Shown: one piece after another, positions 16,412 through 38,775 of the stretch
How positions within the stretch are numbered: the stretch's first letter is position 1
Layout: each line of letters begins with the position of its first letter
From: an uncultured Clostridia bacterium
GTDB lineage: Bacteria > Bacillota > Clostridia > Oscillospirales > Acutalibacteraceae
DNA: 38,851 bases
Assembly: GCA_944384995.1 (NCBI GenBank)
Contig: CALWVN010000019.1
Location: 1 to 38,851, forward strand
Reading direction: 5' to 3'
Program-made: the position numbers and the translations under genes
The notes under the pieces: generated by a model
What the model was told of the DNA's origin: nothing
Database searches by the model: none
Seen by the model: the letters and a program-made list of their open reading frames with translations, nothing else

Positions 16412-16424
16412 CTAACATCTGACT
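16390..16424. repeat. Five-unit heptad array overlapping the 3' end of the minD-like gene
   Basis: Units TCCAGTA, TCTAGCA, TCCAGCA, TCTAACA, TCTGACT. The stop (16412-16414) and the last codons (VRC) of the minD-like gene are inside it. Confidence 0.85.
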
Positions 16425-20775: not shown

Positions 20776-20908
20776 TCTCTCCCCCAGGCTTGCTTCGCTC
20801 GCCTTCCCCCTCGTCAGAGGGGGAAACGCTTGACCGAAAGTTTGCTGAAACCCTTTCCTCCCTCTGAGGAGGGAGGTGGCACGGCGGAACGTCGTGACGG
20901 AGGGAGAG
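20776..20908. repeat. CTCTCCC-family hairpin pair (BIME-like), copy 1
   Basis: One hairpin has the frame CTCTCCCCCAGG...CCTTCCCCCTCGTCAGAGGGGG, with inner arms GGCTTGC and GCTCGCC. The facing hairpin has the frame CCTCCCTCTGAGGAGGGAGGTG...CGGAGGGAGAG, with inner arms CACGGCG and CGTCGTG. Frames match copies at 28356-28481 and 34597-34721, while the inner stems are different sequences that still pair. Confidence 0.85.
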
Positions 20909-20973
20909 CCCCAAGCGGCACCCTTTTGTCGCTTCGCGACATTTCCTCTGACAGGGGAATCACCCGCCCCTAC
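20908..20973. repeat. Hairpin block with GTAG foot and covarying inner stem
   Basis: Read on the minus strand it is GTAGGGGCGGGTGATTCCCC, then CTGTCAGAGG, the stem GTCGC-GAA-GCGAC, and AAAAGGGTGCCGCTT. The related blocks at 16015 and 38509 have GTCCGC-GTAA-GCGGAC and GTCCGC-GTA-GCGGAC. Confidence 0.8.
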
Positions 20974-21054
20974 AGGATTGTACTGATTTTTTATTGCCTT
21001 CGCAGCCGAAAGGTTGTACAAACACGCGGTTTTGATAGAACCGACCGCACCGAT

Positions 21055-21110
21055 TCTGACTTCTGCCTTTTAACTTCTAATTTCTGAAAGCTGCCCGCTG
21101 AAATCTGATT
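21055..21110. repeat. Eight-unit heptad array next to the mreB stop
   Basis: Units TCTGACT, TCTGCCT, TTTAACT, TCTAATT, TCTGAAA, GCTGCCC, GCTGAAA, TCTGATT in unbroken phase, ending 5 bp from the mreB stop codon. Confidence 0.88.
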
Positions 21111-21115
21111 TTTTC

Positions 21116-22135
21116 TTAATCGTAGTTCCGTTTGCCGGTCACGGCGAGCACGGCGTCGTTCTCCAGACACTTGCCGCAGCCGTCCACCACGCAGTCCAGC
21201 GGATTTTCCGCGACGTGCACGGGGATCTTCGTCTCAATGGAGATCAGCTTGTCGAGCCCGCGCAGCAGCGCGCCGCCGCCCGTGAGCATGATGCCGCGGT
21301 CGATGATGTCGGCGGAAAGCTCGGGCGGGGTCTTCTCGAGCGTCGAACGGATGGTGTCAAGGATCTGGTTGACCGGGTCGGAAAGCGCCTCGCGCACCTC
21401 TTCGGAGGTGATCTCAATGTTCTTCGGCAGGCCGTCGAGCAGATTTCTGCCCTTGACGTCCATGGCGCCCTCGCCGTCGTAGGGGTAAGCAGAGCCGATC
21501 TTGATCTTGATATCCTCCGCCGTGCGCTCGCCGATGAGCAGGTTGTGCTTTTTGCGGATGTAAGCGATGATGGCTTCGTCAAAATTGTCGCCCGCCACGC
21601 GCGCGGACTGCGCGGTAACGATGTCGCCGAACGAAATGACCGCGACCTCGCTGGTACCGCCGCCGATGTCCACGACCATGGAGCCGACTGCTTCGGAAAC
21701 GGGCAGCCCCGCGCCGATCGCTGCCGCCATGGGTTCTTCGATGAGGCTGACATACTTCGCGCCCGCCGAACGCGCCGCGTCATGCACCGCCTTGCGCTCT
21801 ACTTCGGTAACGCCCGAGGGGATGCAGATGAGCACGCGCGCTTTCGAAAACGGGGATTTGTTGATCGCCATGCGGATGAATTCCTTGAGCATGTCCGAGG
21901 TGATCTCAAAGTCAGCGATAACGCCGTCCTTCAAGGGGCGTACCGCCGTGATGGAACCGGGCGTTCTGCCGATCATCTGCTTCGCTTTGTCGCCGACGGC
22001 GACGACCTTCTGCGGGTAGGCGCTCACGTCCACCGCAACGACCGAGGGCTCACGGATCACAATGCCCTTGCCTTTAACGAAAACAAGGGTATTGGCGGTG
22101 CCGAGGTCGATCCCAATATCCTGTGAAAACAACAT
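21116..22135 (-). CDS. mreB: Rod shape-determining protein MreB (actin homologue)
   Basis: This 339-residue protein forms cytoplasmic filaments that steer elongasome wall synthesis. Actin-fold ATP motifs are visible: [14 protein letters not shown] (phosphate 1), [15 protein letters not shown] (phosphate 2), [24 protein letters not shown] and [15 protein letters not shown] (adenosine). The start at 22135 gives [15 protein letters not shown] and follows AAGGAAGAG; an upstream in-frame ATG adds 22 unrelated residues and is rejected. It has a strong promoter and opens the cell-shape cluster mreB-mreC-mreD-mrdA-minD-like. Confidence 0.96.
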
Positions 22136-22189
22136 AGGACTCTTCCTTTCTTTCCAAGCGCAGTGCGCGCAATTTTCCAATATGTAGTT

Positions 22190-22218
22190 ATTATAACCCA
22201 CGCCTTAAAAATTCTCAA
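22190..22218 (-). promoter_or_regulatory. Strong sigma-A promoter of mreB
   Basis: On the minus strand, TTGAGA (22213-22218), 17 bp, and a perfect TATAAT (22190-22195), with a leader of about 50 nt to the mreB start. Confidence 0.85.
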
Positions 22219-22280
22219 CCGCCAAATCGTTAAAACTTTCTGAATTCTGTCGTAATTTTTTTGTAAAAGTCCGCGCGATT

Positions 22281-22704
22281 TTAGATGCTGGATGCTGGAC
22301 GCTGGATGTGCGCGCCGGCGGGCAGAGGACAGACGGCAGAGTGCAGAGGCGGCATGGTAGATTTATTCGAAGCCGTAGCTGCACAGAATACCGAAAAATC
22401 GATCAAACGCGTAGTGGCAGGCTTCCATGCCTGCCAAAGGGTGGTCGAAAAACGGAACTACTTTCTGCTGTCTCGAAAATTTCCTGTCCCTTTTCTCGGA
22501 AAATGAAAACAAAATTCTACTCTTTCCGGCAGGCGTGGAAGCCTGCCACTACGCGGAAACATTTCATTCATCATAGACATGGGTTATTATTTTGCCCGCC
22601 TCTGCTTAGGCAGAGCCTTTCGATTTACGGCGAACCCGCAGCTTTGCGCAACCCCCGCCCCATCCCGCTTCTGACTTCTAACCTCGGCCATCTGATATAT
22701 AAAA
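22281..22704. repeat. Intergenic mosaic upstream of mreB
   Basis: Order: four-unit array TTAGATG, CTGGATG, CTGGACG, CTGGATG (22281-22308); a second four-unit array of GCAGANN type (22322-22349); linker; the GTAGTGGCAGGC element (22411-22552); linker; and a five-unit array (22670-22704) that ends inside the terminator at 22701. No gene is supported. Confidence 0.8.
22411..22552. repeat. REPIN-like element, GTAGTGGCAGGC family
   Basis: Facing hairpins with GTAG feet have arms GGCAGGC and GCCTGCC, separated by about 90 bp. Read on the minus strand, the interior (AGAATTTTGTTTTC, then GGAAATTTTC) resembles that of the GTAGGGCGCGGGC copy at 38509-38706, so elements with different stems share a common interior ancestry. 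Confidence 0.82.
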
Positions 22705-22730
22705 AGCCGAGGCGTACGCCCCGGCTTTTT
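22701..22730. terminator. Terminator after the M18 aminopeptidase gene
   Basis: AAAAAGCCGAGGCG and CGCCCCGGCTTTTT form a stem with one mismatch around TA, with T-runs on both strands, 11 bp past the stop at 22742. Confidence 0.88.
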
Positions 22731-22741
22731 GCTCCCGCTGT

Positions 22742-24151
22742 CTATTTTTCTTCGAAAAACGCCTTGCACGCGCGGTAGGTCATGAACACGTCGAGCTTCG
22801 AGACGATCTCGAACGGCGCGTGCATGGAAAGCACCGGCACGCCGATGTCCACGACATCAATATCCATGCCTGCCAAGAACATCGCGACCGTGCCGCCGCC
22901 GCCCGCGTCCACCTTGCCGAGCTCTGCGCACTGCCAAACGACGCCGTTTTCATCCAGCATGCGGCGCACAGCCGCCATATATTCCGCAGACGCATCCGAC
23001 GTGCCGCTTTTGCCGCGTGCGCCGGAGTACTTCATGAACGCGGCGCCCCCGTTTAGGAACGCGGCGTTGTTGCGTTCGCAGACGTCCGGATAGGTCGGGT
23101 CGAATGCTGCCGTCACGTCCGCCGAAAGGCTTTTCGTATGGTGCAGCGCCGTGCGGACGTTTTCGCCGCGCGCTAAGCACAGATCCGTGATGAAGTGCTC
23201 CAGATACGCGGAATTAAGCCCCGTATTGCCCTCCGAACCGATCTCCTCCTTGTCCGTGAGCACGGTCACCGCCGTGTAAGCAGGCGTGCCCTCCAGCGCA
23301 AAGATCGCCTCGGCCGCCGGGTAGGCGCACACGCGGTCGTCGTGGCCGTAGGAACCGATCATGCTGCGGTCAAAGCCGATGTCGCACGCTTGAAACGCCG
23401 GGACGATTTCAAGCTCCGCACTTAAGAAATCGCTTTCCGTCACGCCGTATTTTTCAAACAGGATGTTCAGAATATTCAGCTTGACCTGATCGCTGCTCTC
23501 GTCGGCGGAAAACGGGCGGCTGCCCACGAGCACGTTGAGCTCCTCGCCGCGCACGCCGTCGGCGAGCGTGCGCTTCATCTGCTCGTTCGCCAGGTGCGGC
23601 AGCAGGTCCGTTACCGCAAAACGCGGTTCATCCGCTTCTTCGCCGACGCGCACCTCTATCTTTTCGCCGTCCTTTTTGACGAGCACGCCGTGCAGCGCAA
23701 GCGGCAGGCACGTCCACTGGTATTTCTTGATGCCGCCGTAATAATGCGTTTTGAAAAGCGCCAAGCCGGCGTCCTCGTAAAGCGGGCTGGGCTTTAAGTC
23801 AAGCCGCGGCGAGTCGATGTGCGCCGCCGTCAGCCGCAGGCCCGCTTCGAGCGGCTTTTCGCCGATCACCGCAAGGATGATCGCCTTGCCGCGATTGTTG
23901 TAATAGACCTTGTCGCCCGCGGTATACGCCTTTTTCGGGTCGAATTCGGCGAAGCCGTGCGCCTTCGCGCGCACCTCCATGAACGACGCCGCTTCACGCT
24001 CGGTCTTGGCGCGGTTGAGGAAATCCTTGTACCCTTCGCAGAATGCGTCCGCTTCGGCGATCTCGGGTTGCGTCAGCTTTTTCGCCGCATTTTCCCGCTT
24101 GTGAAACAGCTTTTCCTTAAGCTCGTCCGCCTTGCTTTTTTCTTCAGCCAT
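22742..24151 (-). CDS. M18 family aminopeptidase
   Basis: This 469-residue zinc aminopeptidase (aspartyl aminopeptidase/aminopeptidase I family) removes N-terminal residues from peptides in the cytoplasm. Metal and catalytic motifs are AAHIDSPRLDLKP (His about 111), SYGHDDRVCAY, VLTDKEEIGSEGNTG and VLSMHAPFE. The start at 24151 follows AGAGGAG and overlaps the transglycosylase stop by 8 nt; earlier in-frame codons lie within that gene. It is last in the coaE-slt-M18 unit and is followed by a terminator. Confidence 0.92.
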   Translation of the reverse strand: MAEEKSKADELKEKLFHKRENAAKKLTQPEIAEADAFCEGYKDFLNRAKTEREAASFMEVRAKAHGFAEFDPKKAYTAGDKVYYNNRGKAIILAVIGEKPLEAGLRLTAAHIDSPRLDLKPSPLYEDAGLALFKTHYYGGIKKYQWTCLPLALHGVLVKKDGEKIEVRVGEEADEPRFAVTDLLPHLANEQMKRTLADGVRGEELNVLVGSRPFSADESSDQVKLNILNILFEKYGVTESDFLSAELEIVPAFQACDIGFDRSMIGSYGHDDRVCAYPAAEAIFALEGTPAYTAVTVLTDKEEIGSEGNTGLNSAYLEHFITDLCLARGENVRTALHHTKSLSADVTAAFDPTYPDVCERNNAAFLNGGAAFMKYSGARGKSGTSDASAEYMAAVRRMLDENGVVWQCAELGKVDAGGGGTVAMFLAGMDIDVVDIGVPVLSMHAPFEIVSKLDVFMTYRACKAFFEEK

Positions 24152-24740
24152 TGCTGTCCAGCTCCTCTTTGTAAAGATTTTGATATATGCGCATCGCCCT
24201 TTGCACCTTGTAGACATAGTGGTTAGTGGCGCTTGTGGGGATGACGTCAAGCGTTTTGCCGTCCGCAGAATAGCGCGTATCGGAAAGCCAGTTGTTTACC
24301 TGCCCGCGCCCTGCATGGTAGGCGGCGACTGCGGTGGGGATGTCGCCGTTGAATTCTGTCAGCAGCAGATCCAAAAACACTGCCGCGTAGCGGATAGCGG
24401 TCTCGGGCTCATAGAGCGCCTCGGTCGGGAGCGTCTCATCCGTGCGCGTTTGCAGCCATTCGAACGTCTCGGGCGTGATCTGTGCGATGCCGAGCGCCCC
24501 GGCATGGGATTCGGCATTCGGGTCAAAGCCGCTTTCGGTATGCAGCACGGCGTACAGCAGCGCGCGCGGCACGTCGTATTCGTCCGCCGCCGCTTCGACC
24601 TCCATCGTATATTCCAGTGGGAACACGGCGCGAAATACCGCACGCCCGCCGAGGAAGACGACCGAGCCGATCACGAGCACAAAGCATAAAGTCAGTGCCG
24701 CAAGCTTGCCTGCGGCAATGCGTTTTCGTCTGTTTTTCAT
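24144..24740 (-). CDS. Lytic transglycosylase, SLT family, membrane-anchored
   Basis: This 198-residue protein has a basic start, one membrane anchor (about 13-31) and an SLT goose-lysozyme-like domain. Catalytic Glu69 lies in HTESGFDPNAES, followed by GALGIAQITPETFEWL and AVAAYHAGRGQVNNWL. It cleaves the MurNAc-GlcNAc bond of peptidoglycan with 1,6-anhydro product formation. The ATG at 24740 overlaps the coaE stop (ATGA). Confidence 0.92.
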   Translation of the reverse strand: MKNRRKRIAAGKLAALTLCFVLVIGSVVFLGGRAVFRAVFPLEYTMEVEAAADEYDVPRALLYAVLHTESGFDPNAESHAGALGIAQITPETFEWLQTRTDETLPTEALYEPETAIRYAAVFLDLLLTEFNGDIPTAVAAYHAGRGQVNNWLSDTRYSADGKTLDVIPTSATNHYVYKVQRAMRIYQNLYKEELDSNG

Positions 24741-25318
24741 AGCGGGAACACCCTTCCGATCTCCTCTGCAAGCGTATAAGGCGGGTAGTTGCGGATGACC
24801 GCGTCGCACCGCGCACAAAACCAAGCTTCCGAATGCTGGGCGCGGATGCGCCGCAGCGCGTCTTCTTCGGAAAGTCCGTCTCGCTCCAAAATGCGCGCGA
24901 GCCGCACGCTTTCGGGCGCGACAACGGCAACGGTACGCGCGCAGAGCGCGTCCTCGCCGCTTTCAAACAGAGCGATCGCGTCGAGCAGAACAACCGGGAC
25001 GCGAGCGCGCTCGAATTCAGCCAGACGTCCGCGCACGGCCTCGGTCACGGCGGGGTGGACGATCCGGTTGAGTGTTTCGGTCGCCTCGGGCGAAGCAAAA
25101 GCCGCCTTGGCGAGCGCGGCGCGGTCGACTTCTCCGCTTGTAGTTAAAATCCGACTGCCGAATGCCGCCTGCAATTTTTCGAGCAGCGGAGAACGGGGCG
25201 TATACAGAGATTTTGCCACGCGGTCGGCATCAATATGCGCCCAGCCGCGCGCGCAAAGCATTTTGCACACGGTGCTTTTGCCCGCGCCGGTTTGCCCGGT
25301 GATGCCGATGACCTGCAT
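24737..25318 (-). CDS. coaE: Dephospho-CoA kinase
   Basis: This 193-residue enzyme phosphorylates the 3' hydroxyl of dephospho-CoA, the last step of coenzyme A synthesis. It has the P-loop GQTGAGKST (8-16), the family motif HIDADRVAKSLY, VHPAV, and VPVVLLDAIALFESG. GGAGG lies about 9 nt before the ATG. Upstream, an array of five heptads begins 17 bp from the start, so any promoter would have to lie in the repeat insert or upstream gene. Confidence 0.95.
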   Translation of the reverse strand: MQVIGITGQTGAGKSTVCKMLCARGWAHIDADRVAKSLYTPRSPLLEKLQAAFGSRILTTSGEVDRAALAKAAFASPEATETLNRIVHPAVTEAVRGRLAEFERARVPVVLLDAIALFESGEDALCARTVAVVAPESVRLARILERDGLSEEDALRRIRAQHSEAWFCARCDAVIRNYPPYTLAEEIGRVFPL

Positions 25319-25335
25319 AGCAAAGCGCCTCCATT

Positions 25336-25509
25336 TTAGATATTAGATGTTAGATGCTGGATTCTGGATGTGGGGTTGGGCAGATTCTGCGAAGCCGAAA
25401 ATTTGTACAAACCGTAGGGACAGCCCGATGTGAGATATTAGAAGTTAGACGCGGTGCAGGGAAGGATTGTGCAATGCCGCAGCTGCGCGGAAAACCAGCT
25501 TGCCGCACT
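25336..25509. repeat. Intergenic mosaic between GH13 and coaE
   Basis: A five-unit array (25336-25370: TTAGATA, TTAGATG, TTAGATG, CTGGATT, CTGGATG) is followed by linker (TGGGGTTGGGCAG, AAGCCGAAAATT), half of a GGACAGCC hairpin broken in its loop, a three-unit array (25431-25451) and another linker. Bases 25433-25480 are identical to 33303-33350. Confidence 0.82.
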
Positions 25510-25544
25510 TCTAGCGTCTAGAATCTAATATCCAGCATCCAGAA
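25510..25544. repeat. Five-unit heptad array overlapping the 3' end of the GH13 gene
   Basis: Units TCTAGCG, TCTAGAA, TCTAATA, TCCAGCA, TCCAGAA. The GH13 stop (25525-25527) and its last codons (LDAGY) are encoded by the array. Confidence 0.87.
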
Positions 25545-27393
25545 CCGCACAATCCATCGCCCCGACGCGCACGCACGAGGTCACGGGGCTTTCGTGCAAC
25601 CGTTCGCGGGCGAAATGCCAGTTTTCGTGCAGGTTGTAAACGATGTCGTGCTCGTTACGGTTGGCGATGACCAGAATCGCGCCGTCCGTGCTTTCGCGCG
25701 TATAGGCGACGCAGCCGAGCACGGCGGAGACAAAGCGCATCTCGCCGTCGCGCAAGGCAGGCAGCGCATGCCGCAAAGCGCCGAGCTTTTTGTAGAACGC
25801 CAAAAGCCCCTGATTTTCGCGCCCCCACGGGTAATACCCGCGGTTGAACGGGTCCTTATAACCCTGCATGCCGGCCTCGTCGCCGTAATAGACGCAGGGC
25901 ACGCCGGGCAGGGTGTATTGCAGCACCGCCGCGAGCTTTAACAGCTGCACGCCTTTTTGATACGCTTCGTCGGAAAGCGTTTGCTGCGCCTGCCACGCGC
26001 GGTCGTGGAACCGTGCGCTCTCGCCGGCAAGGCGCGTAACCGCGCGCTCGGTGTCGTGCGTGCCGATGTGGTTCATCAAAACGTCGAGAACGGGTTTCGG
26101 ATAATGCTCTAAGATCGGCGTAACCGCACGCTGAAAAGCCTCGGCTGCCCCGCCGCGCGCAAATTCGAGCACCGCTTCGGCAAAGGGATAGTTCATCACG
26201 CTGTCGAGCTGCCCGCCGAGCAGATACCGCCGCCGCACGCCGTATGCCCATTTGGTCGTGGCGTCCTCCCAGACCTCGCCGAGTACGAGCGCGTCCGGCT
26301 TTTCCGCCTTGGCGGCTTTTGTAAGCGCGTCTAAAAACGCATCGGGCAGCTCGTCGGCGACATCCAGCCGCCAGCCCGCAGCGCCCGCGCGCAGCCAGCG
26401 GCGCACGATACCGTCTCGCCCTGTGATGAAATCGAGGTATGCGGGGCTTTCCTCGTTGACCTCGGGGAGCGTTTCAAAGCCCCACCAGCTTTTGTATTTG
26501 TCCGGGTATTCCGAAAAGGTATACCACGGATAATAAGGAGATGCCTTCGAATTGTAGGCGCCGAGCGTCGGGTAGCGGTTCTCGCGGTTGAAATAGCGGC
26601 TGTCGGAGCCCGTGTGCGAGAACACGCCGTCCAACACCACGCGGATGCCGTATTTTTCCGCTTCGGCGCAAAGGGATCTGAAATCCGCTTCGGTGCCCAA
26701 AAGCGGGTCGATCTTTTCGTAATCCGCCGTGTTGTAGCGGTGGTTGGAATGCGCTTCGAAAATGGGGTTCAGATACAGGCACGTCACCCCGAGGCTTTTC
26801 AGATACGGCAGCTTTTCGCGGATTCCCGCAAGGTCGCCGCCGAAATAGTCGTTGTTGCGTACTTCGCCCGTTTCGTCGGGCTTCCAGTACGGCGGGTTTT
26901 CGGTGTCCGTGCGCAGGATACGGTCATCGGGCACGTCCGTCTTTTTTTTGCCGGAATTATAAAACCGGTCGGGGAAGATCTGATAAAAGATGCCGCCCTT
27001 GAGCCAGTCGGGCGTGCGAAGATTTTTGTCATAGACGGTCAGCTGCCAGCTTTGGCGCGCGCCGGCGCTCGGAAGCGCCCCGATGCCGTCGCCGCTGTGG
27101 AACACGGACCCGCGCCCCCAGGAGGAGTCGTAGTCGAAGTGGTAAAAATATAAGCCCTTTTCCGGCACAGAGAGCTCGATATCCCAGATTTCTTTATCGT
27201 CGCCGTCCATGCCCGCCCAGTACATCGGGTGATCCGCCGTCTCGCCGCCGTCTCGCTGTAAAACAAAGTGCGCGCCGGTCGCGCCGAACGCGCGCGGCAA
27301 AATCAGGCGCAGCCGAAACGGTCTGTCCGTTTCGACGGCGCCCGGCACGCTTTTATAAAACGCATCGGCGGGATTGTAAGGGATCCAATTCAT
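25525..27393 (-). CDS. Glycoside hydrolase family 13 (neopullulanase/amylase-like)
   Basis: This 622-residue protein has an N-terminal beta-sandwich starch-binding-like domain (about 1-125), a catalytic barrel (about 130-540) and a C-terminal domain. Catalytic residues are D344 in GWRLDVADE, E373 in LVLGEVWE and D447 in NHIGTHDTER; region I is LDGVFSHTG. No signal peptide is visible, so it probably acts in the cytoplasm on maltodextrins or glycogen, hydrolysing alpha-1,4 and perhaps alpha-1,6 bonds. The ATG at 27393 is preferred to a TTG two codons earlier; its ribosome binding site is weak. The C-terminal residues come from a heptad array. Confidence 0.88.
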   Translation of the reverse strand: MNWIPYNPADAFYKSVPGAVETDRPFRLRLILPRAFGATGAHFVLQRDGGETADHPMYWAGMDGDDKEIWDIELSVPEKGLYFYHFDYDSSWGRGSVFHSGDGIGALPSAGARQSWQLTVYDKNLRTPDWLKGGIFYQIFPDRFYNSGKKKTDVPDDRILRTDTENPPYWKPDETGEVRNNDYFGGDLAGIREKLPYLKSLGVTCLYLNPIFEAHSNHRYNTADYEKIDPLLGTEADFRSLCAEAEKYGIRVVLDGVFSHTGSDSRYFNRENRYPTLGAYNSKASPYYPWYTFSEYPDKYKSWWGFETLPEVNEESPAYLDFITGRDGIVRRWLRAGAAGWRLDVADELPDAFLDALTKAAKAEKPDALVLGEVWEDATTKWAYGVRRRYLLGGQLDSVMNYPFAEAVLEFARGGAAEAFQRAVTPILEHYPKPVLDVLMNHIGTHDTERAVTRLAGESARFHDRAWQAQQTLSDEAYQKGVQLLKLAAVLQYTLPGVPCVYYGDEAGMQGYKDPFNRGYYPWGRENQGLLAFYKKLGALRHALPALRDGEMRFVSAVLGCVAYTRESTDGAILVIANRNEHDIVYNLHENWHFARERLHESPVTSCVRVGAMDCAVLDAGY

Positions 27394-27430
27394 AGGCAAA
27401 AATCATTCTTTCTGAAACGCGGGTTTGGGG

Positions 27431-27559
27431 GTAGGGCGGGGGCTTGCCCCCGCCGTTTAACTTTGTGAAAATCCATTTCTGTGCCGTGTTTCCATAACGG
27501 CAGACGTTATTCTACCGAAACCGTAACCTCATCGCGGCGGGAGCAAGCCCCCGCCCTAC
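27431..27559. repeat. REPIN-like element, GTAGGGCGGGGGC family, between UDG and GH13
   Basis: Facing GTAG hairpins (27431-27454 and 27536-27559) enclose about 80 bp. In the left hairpin the wobble position of the stem is a G-C pair (GGGGGC-TTG-CCCCC) where the other copies have G-T, a structure-preserving change. It fills most of the 230 bp between the two genes. Confidence 0.85.
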
Positions 27560-27623
27560 GGTTTGTGCGTTCTTTTGGAAAAGGATTTTCGTGCGCAGCC
27601 CGCCGTTTGCGGACAACGCATTT

Positions 27624-28187
27624 TTATATCCCGAGCTCTTTGATCTTCTCCCGCAGGGCGCAGAAATCGGAAAGGGCGTCCGGCTTTTGCGCGGGGTTGC
27701 GCAGCAGTGCCGCAGGATGGTAGGTGCCCATGAGCAGCGTGCCGTTGCGCTCGTAAAACACGCCGTGCTCTTTCGTGACACGGAAGTCGGGGCGGATGAT
27801 GTACTGCGCCGCGATGCGCCCTAAACACACGATAATCTTCGGGCGCAGAAGCTTTACCTGCTCGCGCAGCCACGGCGTGCACGCCGTCTGTTCCTCCTCG
27901 CGCGGGTCGCGGTTTTTCGGCGGGCGGCACTTAACGATGTTCGCGATATAGATATTTTCGTCGCGCGAAAGATCGATATGCGCAAGGTATTTGTCCAGAA
28001 GCTGCCCGCCGCGCCCGACGAACGGCTCGCCCTGCAAATCCTCATTTTCGCCCGGCCCTTCGCCGATGAACATGACCTTCGCATCTGTTTTGCCCACGCC
28101 GAACACAACGTTGCGCCGCGTTTCGCACAGCTCGCAGTTGCGGCAGGCGAGGCATTCGGTTTTTAAGGTTTCCCAGGTGTACGGCAT
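27624..28187 (-). CDS. Uracil-DNA glycosylase, family 4 (iron-sulfur type)
   Basis: This 187-residue protein removes uracil from DNA. It has GEGPGENEDLQGEPFVGRGGQLLD (active-site motif; the usual GRAGQLLD is GRGGQLLD here), NIVKCRPPKNRDP, and TYHPAALLRNP. Cysteines at 12 and 15, about 87 and about 103 fit the four ligands of the family's 4Fe-4S cluster. The start gives MPYTWETLKTECLACRNC, with a GGTGAA site upstream. It is flanked by repeat inserts on both sides, and no promoter was recognised. Confidence 0.9.
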   Translation of the reverse strand: MPYTWETLKTECLACRNCELCETRRNVVFGVGKTDAKVMFIGEGPGENEDLQGEPFVGRGGQLLDKYLAHIDLSRDENIYIANIVKCRPPKNRDPREEEQTACTPWLREQVKLLRPKIIVCLGRIAAQYIIRPDFRVTKEHGVFYERNGTLLMGTYHPAALLRNPAQKPDALSDFCALREKIKELGI

Positions 28188-28582
28188 GGCGGTTCACCTT
28201 TTCAGAATTCAGAGGTTAGACATTAGAGGTCAGAAGCGGTATAGGCGGGTTATTCCCAAAGCCGTGATTACGCAGAATATCAAAAATTTGTTGTCGTAGG
28301 GGCGGGTGATTAGATGGAAGGAAAGCATTCGCACAGATTGCCGGCGGTTTTCCTTGCCCCCTCTGACGAGGGGGCTGTCTGCGATAGCAGACTGGGGGAG
28401 AGATAAACCTGCGCCCCGTTCTACCTTGTCTCTCCCTCCGACACGCGCAAAGCGCGTGCCACCTCCCTCGTCAGAGGGAGGAAAGGGTTTGTGCAAAAGC
28501 TTTCGGTTTTTGCGGATTCCCCCACTGCACATCTGCTCTCAAATATCTAACAGCTGCTCTCTGAACGGCAACCATCCGGCAT
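28188..28582. repeat. Intergenic mosaic between gatB and the UDG gene
   Basis: Order: five-unit array TCAGAAT, TCAGAGG, TTAGACA, TTAGAGG, TCAGAAG (28202-28236); linker; a half GTAGGGGCGGG hairpin broken after GTGATT (28296); the CTCTCCC-family pair (28356-28481); linker; and a longer, slightly slipped array (28532-28596) that enters the end of gatB. The two outer arrays are in opposite orientation. Confidence 0.8.
28356..28481. repeat. CTCTCCC-family hairpin pair (BIME-like), copy 2
   Basis: First hairpin: CCCCTCTGACGAGGGGGCT, inner stem GTCTGC-GATA-GCAGAC, TGGGGGAGAG. Second, facing: CTCTCCCTCCG, inner stem CACGCGC-AAA-GCGCGTG, CACCTCCCTCGTCAGAGGG. Both inner stems are perfect and differ from the other two copies. 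Confidence 0.88.
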
Positions 28583-28596
28583 CTAAGAATCCAGCA
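28532..28596. repeat. Heptad array overlapping the 3' end of gatB
   Basis: TCTGCTC, TCAAATA, TCTAACA, GCTGCTC, TCTGAAC, an 8-bp irregular unit, TCCGGCA, TCTAAGA, one extra base, TCCAGCA. The gatB stop (28583-28585) is inside TCTAAGA. This is one of the few arrays with phase slips. Confidence 0.75.
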
Positions 28597-30016
28597 TCTC
28601 GTGCAGGAGCTTCTGCACCTCCTGCGCCGGGGCTTTGCCCTTAAGCGCGCGCATCGCCTGACCCATGATGTAGCCCATGGCCTGCGTTTTGCCGCCCTTA
28701 TACTCGGAAACGCTCTTTTCGTTCGCCGCGATGACCTCTTCGAGCACGGGGCGCAGCGCAGACAGGTCGGTGATCTGCGCAAGGTTGTTTTCCTTGACAT
28801 ACGTTTCGGGATCGACATCCTGTGCGAACACCTTTTCAAGCACGGTCTTGCCCGTGCCGCGGTTGATCTTGCCCGCTTTCACCATGTTGATGACCGCCGC
28901 GAGCTTTTCGGGGGAAAGGGTCATGTCCTCAGGGAGCGTGCCGCTGTCGTTTAAGAGCTTCATGACCTCGCCCATGATCCAGTTCGCCGCATCCTTGGGG
29001 CTTTGGCAAAGCTCCACCGTCGCCTCGAACAGCCGCACGAACGCAAGATCGCTCGTGAGGATGGACGTATCGTATTCGGGAAGCCCCAATTTCTCGATAT
29101 ACCGGCGCTTTTTCGCTTCGGGCAGTTCCGGCATTTCCGCTTTCACTTTTTCAATGAACGCGTCCGAAATTTCAATGGGCGGGAGATCCGGCTCGGGGAA
29201 ATATTTGTAGTCCTGCGCGTCCTCTTTCGAGCGCATGGCGTAGGACACCCCGCGGTTGTCGTCCCAGCGGCGCGTCTCCTGCACGACCTTGCCGCCGTCC
29301 TCCAGAATGTCGATCTGGCGGCGCGCCTCGTATTCGATGGCGCGCGCGATGGCGCGGAAGGAGTTTAAGTTCTTCATTTCCGTGCGCGTGCCGAATTCCG
29401 CCTGCCCCTTGGGGCGGACGGAAAGGTTCACGTCGGCGCGAAGTGACCCCTCCTGCATTTTGCAGTCGGAAACGCCCGTGAACTGCAGGATCGCGCGCAG
29501 CTTTTCGAGGTAGTCCACGACCTCCTCGGCGGAACGGAAATCCGGCTCGGAGACGATCTCCAGAAGCGGCACGCCGCAGCGGTTGTAGTCCACCAGCGTG
29601 CAGTCGGAAAATTCGTCGTGCACAAGCTTGCCCGCGTCCTCCTCCATGTGGATCTCATGGATGCCGATCTTTTTCGTGCCGCCGTCCGCCGCCTTGACTT
29701 CGATAAAGCCGCCCCGGCAGATGGGCAGGTACAGCTGCGAAATTTGATACGCTTTCGGCAGGTCGGGATAGAAATAGTTTTTGCGGTCGAATTTATTTTT
29801 GCGCGTGATCTCGCAGTTCGTTGCAAGACCCGTGCGCACGGCAAATTCCACGACGCGCCGATTAAGAAGCGGGAGCGTACCGGGCATGCCGGAGCAGATC
29901 TCGCAGACGTGCGTATTCGGTTCGCCGCCGAATTCGGTGGAGCAGCCGCAGAAAATTTTGGTCTTTGTAGCGAGCTCGGTGTGCACCTCAAGCCCCATGA
30001 CGATTTCCCATTCCAT
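28583..30016 (-). CDS. gatB: Asp-tRNA(Asn)/Glu-tRNA(Gln) amidotransferase subunit B
   Basis: This 477-residue subunit binds the misacylated tRNA and performs kinase-assisted amidation in the GatCAB complex. Family signatures are WEIVMGLEVHTEL at the start, FCGCSTEFGGEPNTHVCEICSGMPG with zinc-type cysteines, RKNYFYPDLPKAYQISQ, HMEEDAGKL, VDYNRCGVPLLEIVSEPD, and the tRNA-binding YqeY-like tail (GYIMGQAMRALKGKAPAQEVQKLL). AAGGAGG precedes the ATG, 12 bp after gatA. Confidence 0.97.
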   Translation of the reverse strand: MEWEIVMGLEVHTELATKTKIFCGCSTEFGGEPNTHVCEICSGMPGTLPLLNRRVVEFAVRTGLATNCEITRKNKFDRKNYFYPDLPKAYQISQLYLPICRGGFIEVKAADGGTKKIGIHEIHMEEDAGKLVHDEFSDCTLVDYNRCGVPLLEIVSEPDFRSAEEVVDYLEKLRAILQFTGVSDCKMQEGSLRADVNLSVRPKGQAEFGTRTEMKNLNSFRAIARAIEYEARRQIDILEDGGKVVQETRRWDDNRGVSYAMRSKEDAQDYKYFPEPDLPPIEISDAFIEKVKAEMPELPEAKKRRYIEKLGLPEYDTSILTSDLAFVRLFEATVELCQSPKDAANWIMGEVMKLLNDSGTLPEDMTLSPEKLAAVINMVKAGKINRGTGKTVLEKVFAQDVDPETYVKENNLAQITDLSALRPVLEEVIAANEKSVSEYKGGKTQAMGYIMGQAMRALKGKAPAQEVQKLLHEMLDS

Positions 30017-30028
30017 AGCGACGCCTCC

Positions 30029-31492
30029 TTATCTTTCCTGCGGGGACTGTTTGTGGAAGTCCGTCGCCTGCTGGAACGCCGCTGCGGCGGACAAAATTTC
30101 CGCCTCGCAGAACGGCTTGCCGATAAACTGCATCCCGACAGGCAGCCCCGCCTTGTCAAATCCGCAGGGCAGCGCCATGGAGGGCACGCCCGCGATGTTG
30201 ATCATGACGGTATAGATGTCGCCGAGATACATTTTTAAGGGGTCTGAAAGGCTTTCGCCTAATTTCAGCGCCGTGGTGGGCGCGACGGGCCCCAAAAGCA
30301 TGTCGTATTTTTCGAACGCTTCGAAGAACGACTGCTGGATGAGCTTTTTCGCCTTGAGCGCCTTGTTGTAGTATGCGTCGTAATAGCCGGAGCTCAAAAC
30401 GAAGTTGCCGAGCATGATGCGGCGCTTGACCTCCATGCCGAAGCCCTCGGAACGGGTCTTGACATAGGTTTCCATCAAATTCTCCGCGTGTTCGCTGCGG
30501 TAGCCGTATTTGATGCCGTCGTAGCGCGACAGGTTCGAGCACGCCTCGGCGCAGGCGATGATGTAATAGGCGGGCACGGCGTATTTGACGATCGGCATGG
30601 GGAAGGTCTCGACTTTAGCGCCGAGTTCCTCACAGGTTTTCGCCGCCGCTTCCACCGCCGCGCGCACTTCCGAAGAGAGCCCTTCGCCGAAATAGTCGGC
30701 GGGAAGCCCAATGGTTTTGCCGGCAAGGGAAGCTGTTGTCGCCGCCGTGAAATCAAACTTCGGGTTTTCCATGGACGTGCCGTCCATTTTATCCTTGCCC
30801 TCGATCTCCGCGAACAGCGCGGCGCAGTCCGCCGCATCGTGGGCAAGCGGGCCGATCTGGTCAAGCGAGGACGCATACGCCACAAGCCCGTAGCGCGACA
30901 CCGCGCCGTAGGTGGGCTTTAAGCCCGACACGCCGCAGAACGACGCGGGCTGGCGGATCGAGCCGCCCGTATCCGACCCCAAGGTGATGGGCGCAAGACG
31001 CGCCGCGACGGCTGCCGCCGCCCCGCCCGAGGAGCCGCCGGGGACGCGGCTTACATCCCACGGGTTGTGCGTCGGGCCGGTAAAGGACGTTTCGGTGGTA
31101 CTGCCCATGGCGAACTCGTCCATGTTCAGCTTCCCTAAGGGCACAAGCCCCGCGTCGCGAAGCTTTTGCACGACGGTCGCATCATAGGTCGGCACAAAAT
31201 TCGAAAGGATCTTGGAAGAGCAGGTCGTTTTGATGCCCTTGGTGCAGATATTATCCTTGATGCCGACGGGCACGCCCGCCAAAGGCGAGGTGTAAGTGCC
31301 GTTGTCAATACCCTTTTGCACCTCGTCCGCACGTTTCAGCGCTTCCTCGCGGCAGACGGTATTATAGCAGTGCAATTCGCTGTCTTTCGCTTCGATCGCG
31401 TCTAAATAGCTTTGCGCCGCCTCGCGCACACCGATCTCCCGCCTGCGGATGGCGCTGCCGAGCGCAAGCGCGCCCATTTCAATGATTTCCAT
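30029..31492 (-). CDS. gatA: Asp-tRNA(Asn)/Glu-tRNA(Gln) amidotransferase subunit A
   Basis: This 487-residue amidase releases ammonia from glutamine for GatB. The Ser-cisSer-Lys triad is present at K79 (GIKDN), S154 (VPGGSSGG) and S178 (DTGGSIR), the same numbering as S. aureus GatA, which supports the start at 31492. It lies between gatC (14 bp) and gatB (12 bp). A GGAG site precedes the ATG. Confidence 0.97.
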   Translation of the reverse strand: MEIIEMGALALGSAIRRREIGVREAAQSYLDAIEAKDSELHCYNTVCREEALKRADEVQKGIDNGTYTSPLAGVPVGIKDNICTKGIKTTCSSKILSNFVPTYDATVVQKLRDAGLVPLGKLNMDEFAMGSTTETSFTGPTHNPWDVSRVPGGSSGGAAAAVAARLAPITLGSDTGGSIRQPASFCGVSGLKPTYGAVSRYGLVAYASSLDQIGPLAHDAADCAALFAEIEGKDKMDGTSMENPKFDFTAATTASLAGKTIGLPADYFGEGLSSEVRAAVEAAAKTCEELGAKVETFPMPIVKYAVPAYYIIACAEACSNLSRYDGIKYGYRSEHAENLMETYVKTRSEGFGMEVKRRIMLGNFVLSSGYYDAYYNKALKAKKLIQQSFFEAFEKYDMLLGPVAPTTALKLGESLSDPLKMYLGDIYTVMINIAGVPSMALPCGFDKAGLPVGMQFIGKPFCEAEILSAAAAFQQATDFHKQSPQER

Positions 31493-31506
31493 AATAACAG
31501 CACTCC

Positions 31507-31794
31507 TTATTCCACGGTTTTCGGCACGGCGAAGCAGCCCTCACGGCTGTCCGGCGCGTTTTGCAAGATCTCTTCCGCGCGTGCAGTGTTCGTCACTTCG
31601 TCCTCGCGCACAACGTTCGCCACGGGGAACGAATGGGACGCAGGCTCCACGCCGTCGGTGTCCAACTCGTTGAGCGTGTCGATATAATCCAGAATGCTTT
31701 GCAAGTCCTTTTCCGTCTCGGCGCGCTGTTCCTCGGAAAGCGCAATGCGCCCGAGCGTTTCGAGGTAGGTCACAAGCTCTTTATCTATCTGCAT
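31507..31794 (-). CDS. gatC: Asp-tRNA(Asn)/Glu-tRNA(Gln) amidotransferase subunit C
   Basis: This 95-residue subunit wraps around GatA and GatB and stabilises the complex. It shows the family pattern LETLGRIALSEEQR, LDYIDTLNELDTDGVEPASH, VREDEV and the C-terminal FAVPKTVE. GGAGG precedes the ATG. It follows dapL by 21 bp, so gatCAB is transcribed with dapL. Confidence 0.95.
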   Translation of the reverse strand: MQIDKELVTYLETLGRIALSEEQRAETEKDLQSILDYIDTLNELDTDGVEPASHSFPVANVVREDEVTNTARAEEILQNAPDSREGCFAVPKTVE

Positions 31795-31815
31795 AACTGT
31801 CCTCCGCAGTCGGTC

Positions 31816-33036
31816 TTATTTTGCGAAATACGCCTTGATGCGCTCCACGGCTTTTTCGGTATTTTCCGCAGAGCCGAACGCGGTCAGGCGGAAATACCCC
31901 TCGCCCGACGGACCGAAGCCCTCGCCCGGGGTGCCCACGACCTGCATCTTTTCGAGCAAAAGGTCAAAGAATTCCCAGCTGCCCATGCCGTTCGGCGTTT
32001 TGAGCCACACATAGGGGGAATCCACCGCGCCGTACACGGTGAAGCCGCAGGCTTTGAGCCCTTCATAGATCGTTTTCGCGTTGCGCTGATAATAGGCAAT
32101 GGTCTCGCGGATCTGCTGCTTGCCCTGGGATGAGTAGCAGGCCTCGGCGGCGCGCTGGGTGATGTAGGAAACGCCGTTGAACTTCGTCGCCTGACGGCGC
32201 GCCCACATGGCGTTTAATTCCACACCGTCCGCCTTCAGGTCATGCGGCACAACCGTGTAGCCGCAGCGCACGCCGGTAAAGCCCGCCGTTTTCGAGAAGC
32301 TGCGGAACTCGATGGCGCAGGTCTTGGCGCCCTCGACCTCATAGATCGAGTGCGGCACACCGGGCGTCGTGATGAACGCCTCATACGCCGAGTCGAACAA
32401 AATCACCGCGCCCTCGCGGTTTGCGTAATCGACCCAAGGCTTTAGCTGTTCCTTTGTCGCCGCCATGCCGGTAGGGTTGTTCGGAAAGCATAGATAAATA
32501 ATATCTACGTGGCAGTCCGGGATCTGCGGCAAAAAGCCGTTTTCTGCCGTGCAGGGCATATAGACGATGTTCGACCAGCCGTTTTCGGTCTTGTCGCCGG
32601 CGCGGCCACTCATGACGTTCGTATCCACATATACGGGGTAAACGGGGTCGCACACCGCAACGACATTGTCGTTCGAAAAAATGTCGCCGATGTTGCCGCA
32701 GTCGGATTTTGCGCCGTCGGAAACAAAAATTTCCGATTTGTCAAGCGCGATGCCGCGCGCCAAATAATCGTTTTGTAAAATGGCTTCCAGCAGAAAATCC
32801 TGACCGTACTCCGGCGGATAGCCGCGGAAGGTTTCGGCGTTCGCCATTTCGTCCGCCGCCTTGTGCATGGCTTCGATGCAAGCCGGTGCTAACGGGCGCG
32901 TCACGTCGCCGATGCCCAGGCTGATGACCGAATTCGCTTTGTCGGGATTCGCCGCCTTGTATTCGCGCACCTTTTTGGCAATGCCGGAAAACAGGTAGCT
33001 GCTTTCGATCTTCTGGAAGTTTTTGTTGATCTGCAT
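31816..33036 (-). CDS. dapL: LL-diaminopimelate aminotransferase
   Basis: This 406-residue PLP enzyme converts tetrahydrodipicolinate directly to LL-diaminopimelate, bypassing the DapDEC acyl route. DapL features are [71 protein letters not shown] and the Schiff-base lysine in [19 protein letters not shown] (K249). Its product is the substrate of DapF, encoded just upstream but separated by a 559-bp repeat insert. GGAGGT precedes the ATG. No promoter was recognised in the insert. Confidence 0.96.
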
Positions 33037-33380
33037 ATATTTTACCTCCGCTGTTGTGCTGGATGATATACTAGATATTAGATATTAGACGCTGGATGTT
33101 AGATGTGGGGTGGGCGGGTTTTTCACAAAGCCGAAAATTCGTATAAGCCCGTAGGGACAGCCCTTGCGGCTGTCCGTTTTAGATTTCAGACGTTAGATAT
33201 TAGATGTTAGACGTGGGGCAGGTGCGTTTCCGCAAAGCCGAAAATTCGTACAAGCCCGTAGGGACAGCCCTTGCGGCTGTCCGCTGTTAGATTTTAGATG
33301 TTAGATATTAGAAGTTAGACGCGGTGCAGGGAAGGATTGTGCAATGCCGCGGTTGCGCTGAAAAATCTGTATAAACCATG
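33037..33380. repeat. Intergenic mosaic between dapF and dapL, tandem modules
   Basis: Three modules of heptad array plus linker follow one another: array 33071-33105, linker, GGACAGCC hairpin 33151-33175; array 33179-33213, linker, hairpin 33257-33281; array 33287-33321, linker. Each array has exactly five units. Bases 33148-33218 are identical to 38400-38470 and 33303-33350 to 25433-25480. Confidence 0.87.
33151..33175 (+). repeat. Solo GTAG hairpin, GGACAGCC family
   Basis: GTAG, then arms GGACAGCC and GGCTGTCC around the loop CTTGC. The same hairpin recurs at 33257-33281 and 38403-38427, and inverted near 428-451; a mismatched copy lies at 16319-16344. None of these is paired with a facing copy. 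Confidence 0.87.
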
Positions 33381-33520
33381 TAGGGCGGGGGCTTGCTCCC
33401 GCCGTTAAAAAGTACAGATTTTTAATTTCGTTTCCGGCGGTTCTGGCAGGAATTTTTCAGGCTTTACAAAATCGGTTTGGTTGACCTGCTGTCCTCGGCG
33501 GGAGCAAGCCCCCGCCCTAC
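33381..33520. repeat. REPIN-like element, GTAGGGCGGGGGC family, upstream of dapL
   Basis: Facing GTAG hairpins (33381-33404 and 33497-33520) enclose about 92 bp. The interior aligns with that of 8027-8164: AGATTTTT, a CCGG-rich middle, GAATTTTT, ACAAAATCGGTTTGGTTGACC. Confidence 0.86.
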
Positions 33521-33595
33521 GGGCATGTGCAAACTTTCGGCGCTCCGCAGGATTCCCCATCTCACATCTGGAATCTAATGTCCAGAATTTAAAAT
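33521..33595. repeat. Linker and heptad array at the 3' end of dapF
   Basis: A linker is followed by six heptads (33560-33601): TCTCACA, TCTGGAA, TCTAATG, TCCAGAA, TTTAAAA, TCTAAAA. The dapF stop codon (33596-33598) lies in the last unit. Confidence 0.85.
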
Positions 33596-34432
33596 CTAAA
33601 ATTCGATCTCCCCCGAAAAGACCTCTTCGGCGGGGCCGGTCATATAGACGTCGCCATCCTTTGACCAGCGGATGACAAGCTGCCCGCCGCGCAGGTTCAC
33701 GCGGATGTCCCTGTCGCGCTCGGCGCGCCCGTTTAAGACCGAGGCGACCGCCGCCGCGCACGCGCCCGTGCCGCAGGCAAGCGTTTCGCCCGAGCCGCGC
33801 TCCCACACGCGCATGTCAAATTCGGTGGGGCTTACGGTGCGGACAAACTCTGTATTGATGCGGTCGGGGAAGCGTTCGTGGTGCTCAAACTTCGGGCCGA
33901 GCCGTTCGAGTTCGAGCCCTTTCACATCGTCCACGAACAGCACACAGTGCGGGTTGCCCATGGAAACACAGGTCACGAAAACATCTGTTTCGCCGATAGT
34001 TAATTTCTGACTAACGACGCTTTCGCCGTCAAATGTGGTCGGAATTTCGCGGGCGGCAAGGATCGGCGCGCCCATGTTAACGCGTGCGGCTGTGACCCTG
34101 CCGTTTTCGGTATATACCCGAATGGTCTTGATGCCGCTTAAGGTCTCGATCGCGATTTCCGTTTTGTCGGTCATTCCGCGGTCATACACATATTTCGCCA
34201 CGCAGCGGATCGCGTTGCCGCACATTTTCCCGCGCGAGCCGTCGGCGTTATACATATCCATAAAAAAGTCGGCGTTTTCGGAAGGGCAGATCAGCACCAA
34301 GCCGTCCGCGCCGATGCCGAAATGGCGGTCGCTGACGCGAATTGCCGTTTGCGCGGGATCTTCCACCTGTTCTTCGAAGGCGTTCACATAAACATAATCG
34401 TTGCCTGCGCCCTGCATTTTGGTGAATTTCAT
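33596..34432 (-). CDS. dapF: Diaminopimelate epimerase
   Basis: This 278-residue, cofactor-free epimerase converts LL- to meso-diaminopimelate for lysine and peptidoglycan synthesis. The two catalytic cysteines are C71 (GKMCGNAIRC) and C220 (ETLACGTGACAAA); KMQGAGNDYVYV is the usual N-terminus. GGAGGG precedes the ATG by about 7 nt. It is followed, after the repeat insert, by dapL. Its stop codon is supplied by a heptad unit. Confidence 0.97.
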   Translation of the reverse strand: MKFTKMQGAGNDYVYVNAFEEQVEDPAQTAIRVSDRHFGIGADGLVLICPSENADFFMDMYNADGSRGKMCGNAIRCVAKYVYDRGMTDKTEIAIETLSGIKTIRVYTENGRVTAARVNMGAPILAAREIPTTFDGESVVSQKLTIGETDVFVTCVSMGNPHCVLFVDDVKGLELERLGPKFEHHERFPDRINTEFVRTVSPTEFDMRVWERGSGETLACGTGACAAAVASVLNGRAERDRDIRVNLRGGQLVIRWSKDGDVYMTGPAEEVFSGEIEF

Positions 34433-34754
34433 CGCTGCCCTCCTGCTGTAGATGGTTTTTGACTATTGCTTGTCGCTCAAACGTTTTCAGGTTTCCGCCG
34501 CGAGCCCCTCGCGCACGCCAATCCTTTGTCCGCAGTGCGGGAAATCGCTCTCAAAAACGGAAGGATCGGTATTGCGCAAACGCTCGATTCTGCGTTGCCC
34601 CCTCTGACGAGGGGGCTGCCGCCGTAAGGCGGCTGGGGGAGAGACTAAGCCTGTGCTGATTTTTCTCTCCCTCCGCCAAACGACGAATACGCCGTTTGAC
34701 ACCTCCCTCATCAGAGGGAGGAAAGGGTTTGTGCAGACTTGTAGTTTCTGCCGT
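34433..34754. repeat. Intergenic region between the ANTAR gene and dapF
   Basis: It holds the dapF ribosome binding site and about 150 bp of unassigned sequence, then the CTCTCCC-family pair (34597-34721) and a short linker. No heptad array is present, unlike most other inserts. No confident dapF promoter or terminator was found. Confidence 0.65.
34597..34721. repeat. CTCTCCC-family hairpin pair (BIME-like), copy 3
   Basis: First hairpin: CCCCTCTGACGAGGGGGCT, inner stem GCCGCC-GTAA-GGCGGC, TGGGGGAGAG. Second: CTCTCCCTCCGC, inner arms CAAACG and CGTTTG, CACCTCCCTCATCAGAGGG. Frames match copies 1 and 2; inner stems do not. Confidence 0.88.
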
Positions 34755-38234: not shown

Positions 38235-38775
38235 TAGATTTTTGCGAAAAACCGCCGCTTTGGGCAGTTCGCTCGCTCGCGCACCGCTTTTCGACGGCTT
38301 TTGGGTGAAATAGACGGTAGATTTTAGATGCCGGATGCTGGATGCCGGATTCTAGATGTGGGGCGGGGCAGTTTCTGCGCAACCGAAAATCAGCACACAC
38401 CCGTAGGGACAGCCCTTGCGGCTGTCCGTTTTAGATTTCAGACGTTAGATATTAGATGTTAGACGTGGGGTAGGCAAGTTTCATGCAAAGTCGAAATTTG
38501 CACAAACCGTAGGGCGGGGGTGATTCCCCTGACAGGGGAAATGTCCGCGTAGCGGACAAAAGGGTTCGGGATTCGGAGAATCTGCTCGCGCCGAGGGCAG
38601 TTGGGCGGCAAAACCAGTTTTGTTTATTCTGAAAATTTCCCGCCAGAAACCCCGAAAGCAAAATCAAAATCTGGACTTTAAGCGGCGCGAGCAAGCCCGC
38701 GCCCTACAGTACAGGTCTGTGAAAACTTTAAGGTCTTCTGCGAAACGGATGCTCCCCTTGTAGGGGCGGGGCTTA
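38235..38775. repeat. Intergenic mosaic upstream of guaB
   Basis: Order: six-unit array (38317-38358), linker, GGACAGCC hairpin (38403-38427), five-unit array (38431-38465), linker, the composite element 38509-38706, linker, and a half GTAGGGGCGGGGCTTA hairpin (38760-38775) cut by the insertion sequence. Bases 38400-38470 are identical to 33148-33218. Confidence 0.85.
38509..38706. repeat. Composite REPIN-like element with GTAGGGCGCGGGC variant stem
   Basis: The right hairpin, read on the minus strand, has arms GGCGCGGG and CTCGCGCC: relative to GGCGGGGG/CTCCCGCC, one base has changed in each arm so that pairing is kept. The facing hairpin near 38583-38600 keeps CTGCTCGCGCCG. Its GTAG side is occupied by the nested block with stem GTCCGC-GTA-GCGGAC (38519-38570). 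The interior is inverted relative to 8027-8164. Confidence 0.8.

Follow-up and report, generated by a model that had tools for sequence, protein, structure and literature searches.

Exchangeable hairpin units in an uncultured Clostridia bacterium and their linkage to DUF559/YcjD-family nuclease genes

Intrastrand-triplex motifs (TM_ECO), also known by the name PIT, are one of the described systems closest to the hairpin units considered here. According to the main text of PMC4666352, E. coli K-12 holds 23 such motifs, of which type A is always joined to type B in five inverted pairs; mobility functions were never found nearby, the mechanism is called unclear, and ycj, sapF, fabI, endonuclease or DUF do not occur in that main text. 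A second system, as far as the consulted portions of PMC3733652 describe it, is formed by the repetitive extragenic palindromes (REPs) with GTAG or CGTC tags and their REP-associated tyrosine transposases (RAYTs), i.e., short dispersed palindromes, often in inverted pairs, copies of which also flank an enzyme gene. On the enzyme side, excerpts of three papers are relevant: DUF559 has been placed in the EDxHD homing endonuclease family (PMC9403480), YcjD has already been used as a member of the PD-(D/E)XK superfamily (PMC1189080), and Caulobacter VsrA, which carries a DUF559 domain, is required for a DNA-damage response in a methylase mutant (PMC12907096). The subject of this work is a stretch of 38,851 nt (hereafter the window, meaning the whole stretch analysed), which is contig 19 (CALWVN010000019.1) of the 1.89-Mb draft genome GCA_944384995.1 of an uncultured Clostridia bacterium, and the three pairs of hairpin units in it, whose inner stems are replaced while remaining self-complementary. 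Units of this kind bracket genes of DUF559/YcjD-family nucleases, which is a new finding here; no report linking DUF559 or ycjD to repeats was found in the parts of the open-access literature that were searched, and such a paper may exist elsewhere.

Three intergenic sites of the window each contain one A unit and one B unit, mutually inverted (Table 1), and both types have one common architecture. On its purine-rich strand, each unit consists of a pyrimidine arm (Y), a 4-nt loop, a purine arm (R), a central variable hairpin and a tail (R′). The A unit is laid out as CTCTCCCCCA, hairpin, A, GCCCCCTC(GTCA)GAGGGGGC, and the B unit as CTCTCCCTCCG, hairpin, CC, ACCTCCCTC(GTCA)GAGGGAGG; a third type, C (CTACCCCTCA..AGGGGAGC), is located elsewhere in the same genome. 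The central hairpin region (the centre) ranges from 12 to 38 nt. All three pairs and every stem named by the initial annotation are present where it had placed them, that is, GGCTTGC/GCTCGCC and CACGGCG/CGTCGTG at 20777-20908, with the mismatches noted for that copy, GTCTGC/GCAGAC and CACGCGC/GCGCGTG at 28356-28481, and GCCGCC/GGCGGC and CAAACG/CGTTTG at 34597-34721.

Table 1. Positions, strands and sequence layout of the six hairpin units of the window.
Unit	Position	Strand	Layout
Site 1, A unit	20777..20824	+	CTCTCCCCCA - hairpin GGCTTGC(TTC)GCTCGCC - TCCCCCTC(GTCA)GAGGGGGA; two internal mismatches (TT x TC)
Site 1, B unit	20857..20908	-	CTCTCCCTCCG - hairpin CACGACG(TTC)CGCCGTG - CCTCCCTC(CTCA)GAGGGAGG
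Site 2, A unit	28356..28402	-	central hairpin GTCTGC(TATC)GCAGAC
Site 2, B unit	28430..28481	+	central hairpin CACGCGC(AAA)GCGCGTG
Site 3, A unit	34597..34643	-	central hairpin GCCGCC(TTAC)GGCGGC
Site 3, B unit	34665..34721	+	central hairpin CAAACGACG..CGCCGTTTG

The constant part of the unit, i.e., the frame, is similar to the triplex motifs. Over 54 R-arm strings from all loci, in which overlapping 7- and 8-mers were counted separately and not collapsed, the R′ tail matches the mirror of its own R at an identity of 0.731. Shuffled tails give 0.637, with none of 2000 shuffles reaching the observed value, and the match to a direct repeat of R (0.657) is below that of the mirror. Thus, the TM_ECO/PIT relation of a tail R′ mirroring the R arm of an adjacent Y-R hairpin also holds here. 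The Y-loop-R-loop-R′ purine-motif layout, the intergenic location, the combination of A and B types in inverted pairs and the unusual rearrangement of the loci are further likenesses to the motifs as the main text of PMC4666352 presents them. In the same text, however, loop 2 has 3 nt, whereas here it is the hairpin, and the published search rule of loops of 1–6 nt does not capture the present units; moreover, the loop-2 hairpin here is swapped as a whole between copies, and the units have a proposed partner in a nuclease. Judged from its sequence, the frame is a variant of the published intrastrand-triplex repeats in which a loop is replaced by a hairpin, and a fold combining a hairpin with an intrastrand triplex is possible for it, the hairpin in the triplex loop being free in sequence.

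The frames occur beyond chance: when 39 genomes of the genus were searched with a B frame pattern leaving 10–40 central bases free, 19 genomes matched, and the reversed pattern used as a control matched none. The same pattern occurs in at least 116 stretches of named genomes; of the 80 with a title listed, most come from draft genomes of Oscillospiraceae or other Clostridia and some from Bifidobacterium. Pairing is largely kept as stem identity changes. Over 157 distinct centres (220 occurrences), the mean stem score is 6.75, versus 3.33 with halves swapped between units (standard deviation 0.10, maximum 3.56 of 200), and 91% of these centres reach a score of at least 5, versus 14% after swapping. 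Covariation, for which R-scape had been proposed, was assessed instead by structure-pair counts and a G statistic with average product correction (APC) on an ungapped set of 38 distinct 22-nt centres out of 164 distinct centres. Of the 266 cells in this set, 92.5% are paired, a value reached by 0 of 500 shuffles (59.1 ± 2.2% after shuffling), the covariation score is 0.764, versus 0.136 shuffled and at most 0.239 with the partner slid, and the four strongest APC-corrected pairs are stem pairs; both sides change at 6 of the 7 stem positions, with all four Watson–Crick pairs at 4 of them, and 20 cells are unpaired. The hairpin observation is therefore confirmed, far above chance, and since pairing is kept while identity changes, the folded single strand matters. 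The freedom of stem identity holds in one sense and fails in another, for stems are nearly free over the 157 distinct centres, but within one genome there are few multi-copy classes; in the window's own genome, 13 of 27 B units are CACGCGC or a one-base variant. Of the two findings named in advance as telling against the idea, inner stems that do not pair were not what the genomes contain, and repeated stems were found to the extent that few stems are re-used per genome among the matches listed. In addition, the central loops are strand-biased, mostly GNA/GNNA on the purine strand (66 versus 5 in a manual count of the listed loops), and the possible-wobble mismatches are six A-C and zero G-T, i.e., wobble only on the purine strand, some of them from near-identical copies. 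Together, the loop bias and these mismatches suggest that the purine strand is the one that folds.

Other arrangements of the units were also observed. A composite element of about 175 nt in the same genome (L009, L011-L014 and L016; L, G and C numbers denote loci, genomes and contigs) contains a B unit together with a C unit and has inverted ends of the TGTCAAA type, and at L014 and L016 a complete host terminator hairpin (22–30 nt) flanks it on both sides, as if duplicated by insertion. At G000:C12 52893-54088 (L003, L010, L022), A and B units alternate in an array of about 155 nt that adjoins a DUF559 gene, and hairpin and linker vary jointly between its repeats. A second hairpin family, GATTCCCC..GGGGAA, lies within the R arm of the outer hairpin, after GAGGG in the 3 cases seen, at L003/L300 upstream of DUF559 and in the G025 stretches matching window sites 1 and 2; in the L003 copy it is followed by ATGTCGCGAAGCGACA and AAGGGGACGG. 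This family is a nested insertion at a fixed point.

Some units adjoin the start of a small gene by a few bases, and this gene is DUF559 (PF04480), which was detected in 22 of the 39 genus genomes. A strict flank test was applied, requiring a perfect hairpin of at least 7 bp with a polypurine or polypyrimidine arm within 200 nt, the flanks being measured from the domain ends for DUF559 genes and from the first M and the stop for control genes. From 36 places in the genus, 30 were obtained and 27 counted (L307 and L309 gave no profile match, and L308 is not stand-alone). All 27 stand-alone DUF559 genes, three of them shortened versions (L304, L306, L317), have a hairpin on at least one side, and 19 have one on both. 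The corresponding values (either side, both sides) for control genes are 13 and 1 among 94 genes of the genus, 7 and 1 among 21 of the window, 6 and 0 among 24 of two relatives, and 2 and 0 among 5 at phylum loci; for dinucleotide shuffles of all sets they are 8 and 0 of 335. Among loci chosen for units, 8 of the 11 DUF559 frames lie beside units by a loose pattern. A mixed set of 38 distinct DUF559 genes combined genus loci with loci selected for units; 24 of these genes have the purine tail of a 5′ unit close to their start, and the reading frame stops within the 3′ unit in 6 by a strict pattern, with C-termini such as SLPQSASQTAPSSEG. Eight genomes have at least 10 exact B units, and 7 of these have a strong DUF559 match, that is, 7 of 19 genomes with a strong match versus 1 of 20 without (p = 0.02; rank test, p = 0.015); B-unit copy number fits the presence of DUF559 only moderately.

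A profile of 11 DUF559 proteins matches the structures 3hrl and 3r3p (I-Bth0305I), the latter with a sequence-profile E of 0.0053. The predicted DUF559 model, with a predicted local distance difference test score (pLDDT) of 82.5, matches 3hrl in fold at E 3.5e-6 and I-Bth0305I at E 1.2e-4; the match to Vsr is weaker (E 0.04–0.07). By this predicted model, the protein has the Vsr-like catalytic fold of the homing endonuclease I-Bth0305I, but its gene differs in that it is intergenic and has hairpin units on either side; an intron or intein was neither sought nor seen. Vsr, Caulobacter VsrA (PMC12907096) and YcjD (PMC1189080) belong to the same superfamily, though in the available portions of these two papers no repeat linkage is stated for Vsr/VsrA or for YcjD.

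The gene and its units behave as a single block between argJ and argB, where filled and empty sites are both seen. The arrangement unit-DUF559-unit lies there in G013 and G017; among 26 further argJ-argB loci, 24 junctions were readable, and by eye the block is present in that of G017 and not in the other 23. The gap measures 15 nt in G012 and 56–151 nt in G015, G011 and G016. At L338 (G033), a lone outer hairpin (TTCCTCCCTCGTCAGAGGGAGC) stands between argJ and argB where two other genomes hold the full element, and it is perhaps a scar. As for the window, G038, with a gatB of 94% identity, has no A-B pair in the gatB-UDG gap that holds site 2, and G025 retains the outer hairpin alone in this gap; the pair of site 3 is missing, by eye, from the same gap in both G038 and G025.

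The way in which centres change was followed at sites whose homologous flanks extend for at least 150 nt in both directions, giving 19 unit pairs from 11 locus pairs, a set which pools loci chosen for differing reasons and includes two viral contigs. Replacement is all-or-none: 7 pairs have identical centres and 12 differ by 5–14 edits at a flank divergence of 4–26%, with no intermediates of 1–4 edits. The clearest case is that of G009 and G015, which share an identical frame and flanks of 85% identity (over 345 and 349 nt), while CAACGC-TAAT-GCGTTG stands opposite CATTTCC-TTGC-GAAAATG; the G015 hairpin is one base off a class with three other G015 copies among the matches listed, which points to exchange of the whole cassette. 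Similarly, the B hairpin of window site 1 is wholly unlike that of G025 in the same mreC-mreB gap (TTTTGCC/GGCAAAA). Since centres are either identical or 5–14 edits apart, the pattern looks like whole-hairpin cassette exchange rather than drift or arm-by-arm rewriting; simple compensatory drift was rejected given the zero intermediates, and the rewriting of one arm from the other, which the initial annotation had offered as the copying process, is not supported as the main process on the same count. Loop inversions, i.e., reverse-complement loops on the same 5-nt arm, number 5 versus 1.76 expected, a modest excess reached by 33 of 2000 shuffles, and hairpin-templated correction may add to cassette exchange.

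Beyond the genus, 12 of 38 plasmid and phage records were put through the strict test, E. coli H3 and H4 being left out; 10 of the 12 show a hairpin, 5 on both sides, with hits in Cyanobacteria, Deinococcota, Alpha-, Beta- and Gammaproteobacteria and gut phage contigs. The two misses (Azospirillum and Novosphingobium) have imperfect hairpin versions by eye. In Bifidobacterium, 3 of 4 genomes chosen for B units contain DUF559, and of 5 stand-alone genes, 3 score on both sides and 2 on neither. In E. coli, ycjD is located between sapF and fabI, and at least 80% of the query is present in 3364 of 5426 genomes; the K-12 frame ends CCCTCTCCCTGA, followed by AAGAGCGAGGGGGC and then by the triplex motif CCCCTCGCCCCTCTGGGGAGAGGGTTAGGGTGAGGGG. 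In a phylum-wide sample of DUF559 (29 loci of a longer list), hairpins accompany 5 of the 7 best-scoring stand-alone proteins versus 2 of 15 weaker ones. Linkage of DUF559 as a whole was rejected, given this last value and the 1 of 11 for DUF559-like parts of larger or partial frames, and since the weaker members are unlinked, the claim is restricted to YcjD-like proteins. B units also occur in 13 viral-contig stretches, in which no DUF559 match was obtained at E 1e-5.

Our preferred reading, to which we assign a probability of roughly 0.55, is that the six units of the window are non-autonomous copies of an element whose full version is unit, DUF559 nuclease gene and inverted unit, and that hairpins are exchanged under the action of this nuclease. 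The enzyme, a relative of I-Bth0305I and more distantly of Vsr, would recognise the frame or its folded form, be it triplex or single-stranded DNA, and cut at the units; the break would be repaired from another unit via the shared frames, and copying during repair would spread the units, hold the frames constant and swap the entire central hairpin between copies. Cut-and-copy repair of this kind would leave constant frames, whole-hairpin swaps that are nevertheless self-complementary and few hairpin classes per genome. In the broadest form, for which the chances seem about even, there would be an unnamed, phylum-spanning class of mobile element that joins a Vsr-like (DUF559/YcjD) homing nuclease to inverted triplex-hairpin units on both of its sides. 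This element would propagate as folded units are cut and then repaired from another copy; the published triplex repeats, in E. coli as in cyanobacteria, would be non-autonomous forms derived from it, and the interchangeable hairpin would be the mark left by repeated homing.

Several observations weigh against this reading. As regards exchange, the hairpin is kept in 7 of the 19 same-flank pairs, which represent 11 locus pairs; L003, L069 and L301 account for 6 of the 12 replaced pairs and have the DUF559 element itself within their flanks, so that they may not be chromosomal orthologues; and 2 of the 12 (L026/L099 and L230/L282) are only 5 edits apart and could represent several compensated changes instead. 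Of the marks of a classical miniature inverted-repeat transposable element (MITE), the inverted units are present, but a target-site duplication, sought by eye at argJ-argB, was not seen. As regards linkage, other genes of DUF559 loci often score on one side (8 of 11; both sides 0 of 11), divergent DUF559 proteins of the phylum sample mostly have no hairpins, and no E. coli ycjD flank passes the strict test, the neighbouring motifs being imperfect. Bare presence of B units is not significantly associated with DUF559 (12 of 19 versus 7 of 20, p = 0.11): six genomes with 1–9 B units (G001, G025, G026, G030, G033 and G038) have no DUF559 match, G011 with 17 B units has a weak match alone, and seven genomes with strong DUF559 have no exact B unit, the tested genes there bearing hairpins of other frames. 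Finally, 2 of the 7 copy-rich genomes with strong matches carry a broken DUF559 (an in-frame stop in G009 and a truncation in G017), so that in these two genomes exchange would either have ended or depend on a different copy or route.

The last of these points also speaks for ordinary homologous recombination, which would act between the dispersed frames and need no enzyme of its own, DUF559 genes merely lying where repeats collect. The frames are common to all copies and able to misalign, the C12 array mixes hairpins and linkers, and many contigs terminate at units. However, flanking on both sides is specific to DUF559 (19 of 27 versus 1 of 94) and recurs in other phyla with different frames, and at argJ-argB the gene and units form one block; this explanation is considered unlikely.

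Selection at the RNA level is a slightly less likely explanation, in which the units are transcribed hairpins (terminators or ribosome-binding leaders) and selection preserves the RNA fold while compensatory mutations let the stems drift. It would account for the strong covariation and for the strand bias of loops and wobble, and an ATG follows the purine tail by 2–14 nt in 17 of 216 B units versus 2 of 216 on the other side. Nevertheless, this start-codon rate (7.9%) is close to the 5.8% at random positions, and ribosome binding was rejected as a general function; no cell shows a one-sided standard pair (G-T) on the aligned strand, replaced centres lack the intermediates that compensatory drift would leave, and an Rfam scan of the window gave no match at the gathering threshold.

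It is very unlikely that a Y1 (IS200-like) transposase excises and inserts the units as single strands, as in REP/RAYT-type movement. The units are REP-like in being short, palindromic, intergenic and often in inverted pairs, and the genome has one Y1_Tnp match; yet the hairpin beside this Y1 gene is different, starting GTAGGG, for which reason the Y1 transposase was rejected as the mover, and the units adjoin DUF559 rather than Y1 (compared in the window's own genome). Nor do A and B units have GTAG or CGTC at the unpaired end, the tags that define REPs in the consulted portions of PMC3733652, and CGTC occurs in them solely at the junction of the final arm base with the 4-nt loop. Compared with the REPs and RAYTs of these portions, the units lack a 5′ tag and are accompanied by a Vsr-like enzyme (PD-(D/E)XK) instead of a tyrosine transposase; each unit here is also two hairpins plus a mirror tail. 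Hairpin-templated correction (quasi-palindrome repair), in which one arm is rewritten from the other, is highly improbable as the general explanation, for although it agrees with the excess of loop inversions and accounts for single-arm fixes, it does not explain the arrival of a hairpin class already elsewhere in the genome, and no partial states are seen between sites.

The sole Y1 transposase match of this genome (L031, C6:12833-13144) has its GTAGGGACAGCCC..GGCTGTCC hairpin just upstream, and the window has further GTAGGG hairpins resembling it near 425-457 and 33251-33283, so there is probably a separate REP/RAYT-like system in the genome. In addition, degenerate 7-nt tandem repeats of the TCTAACA/TTAGATG type are found in many intergenic regions (in the window, at 263-529, 16279-16424, 33070-33332 and 38320-38535).

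The units are a natural system which keeps structure while exchanging sequence. If the nuclease-driven reading is true, a YcjD-family partner would supply the triplex-forming repeats with the mobility function that, by the main text of PMC4666352, had not been found near them; it would also suggest a role for ycjD, a K-12 gene of unknown function, and the spread of the palindromes and the rearrangement of their loci would become directly testable.

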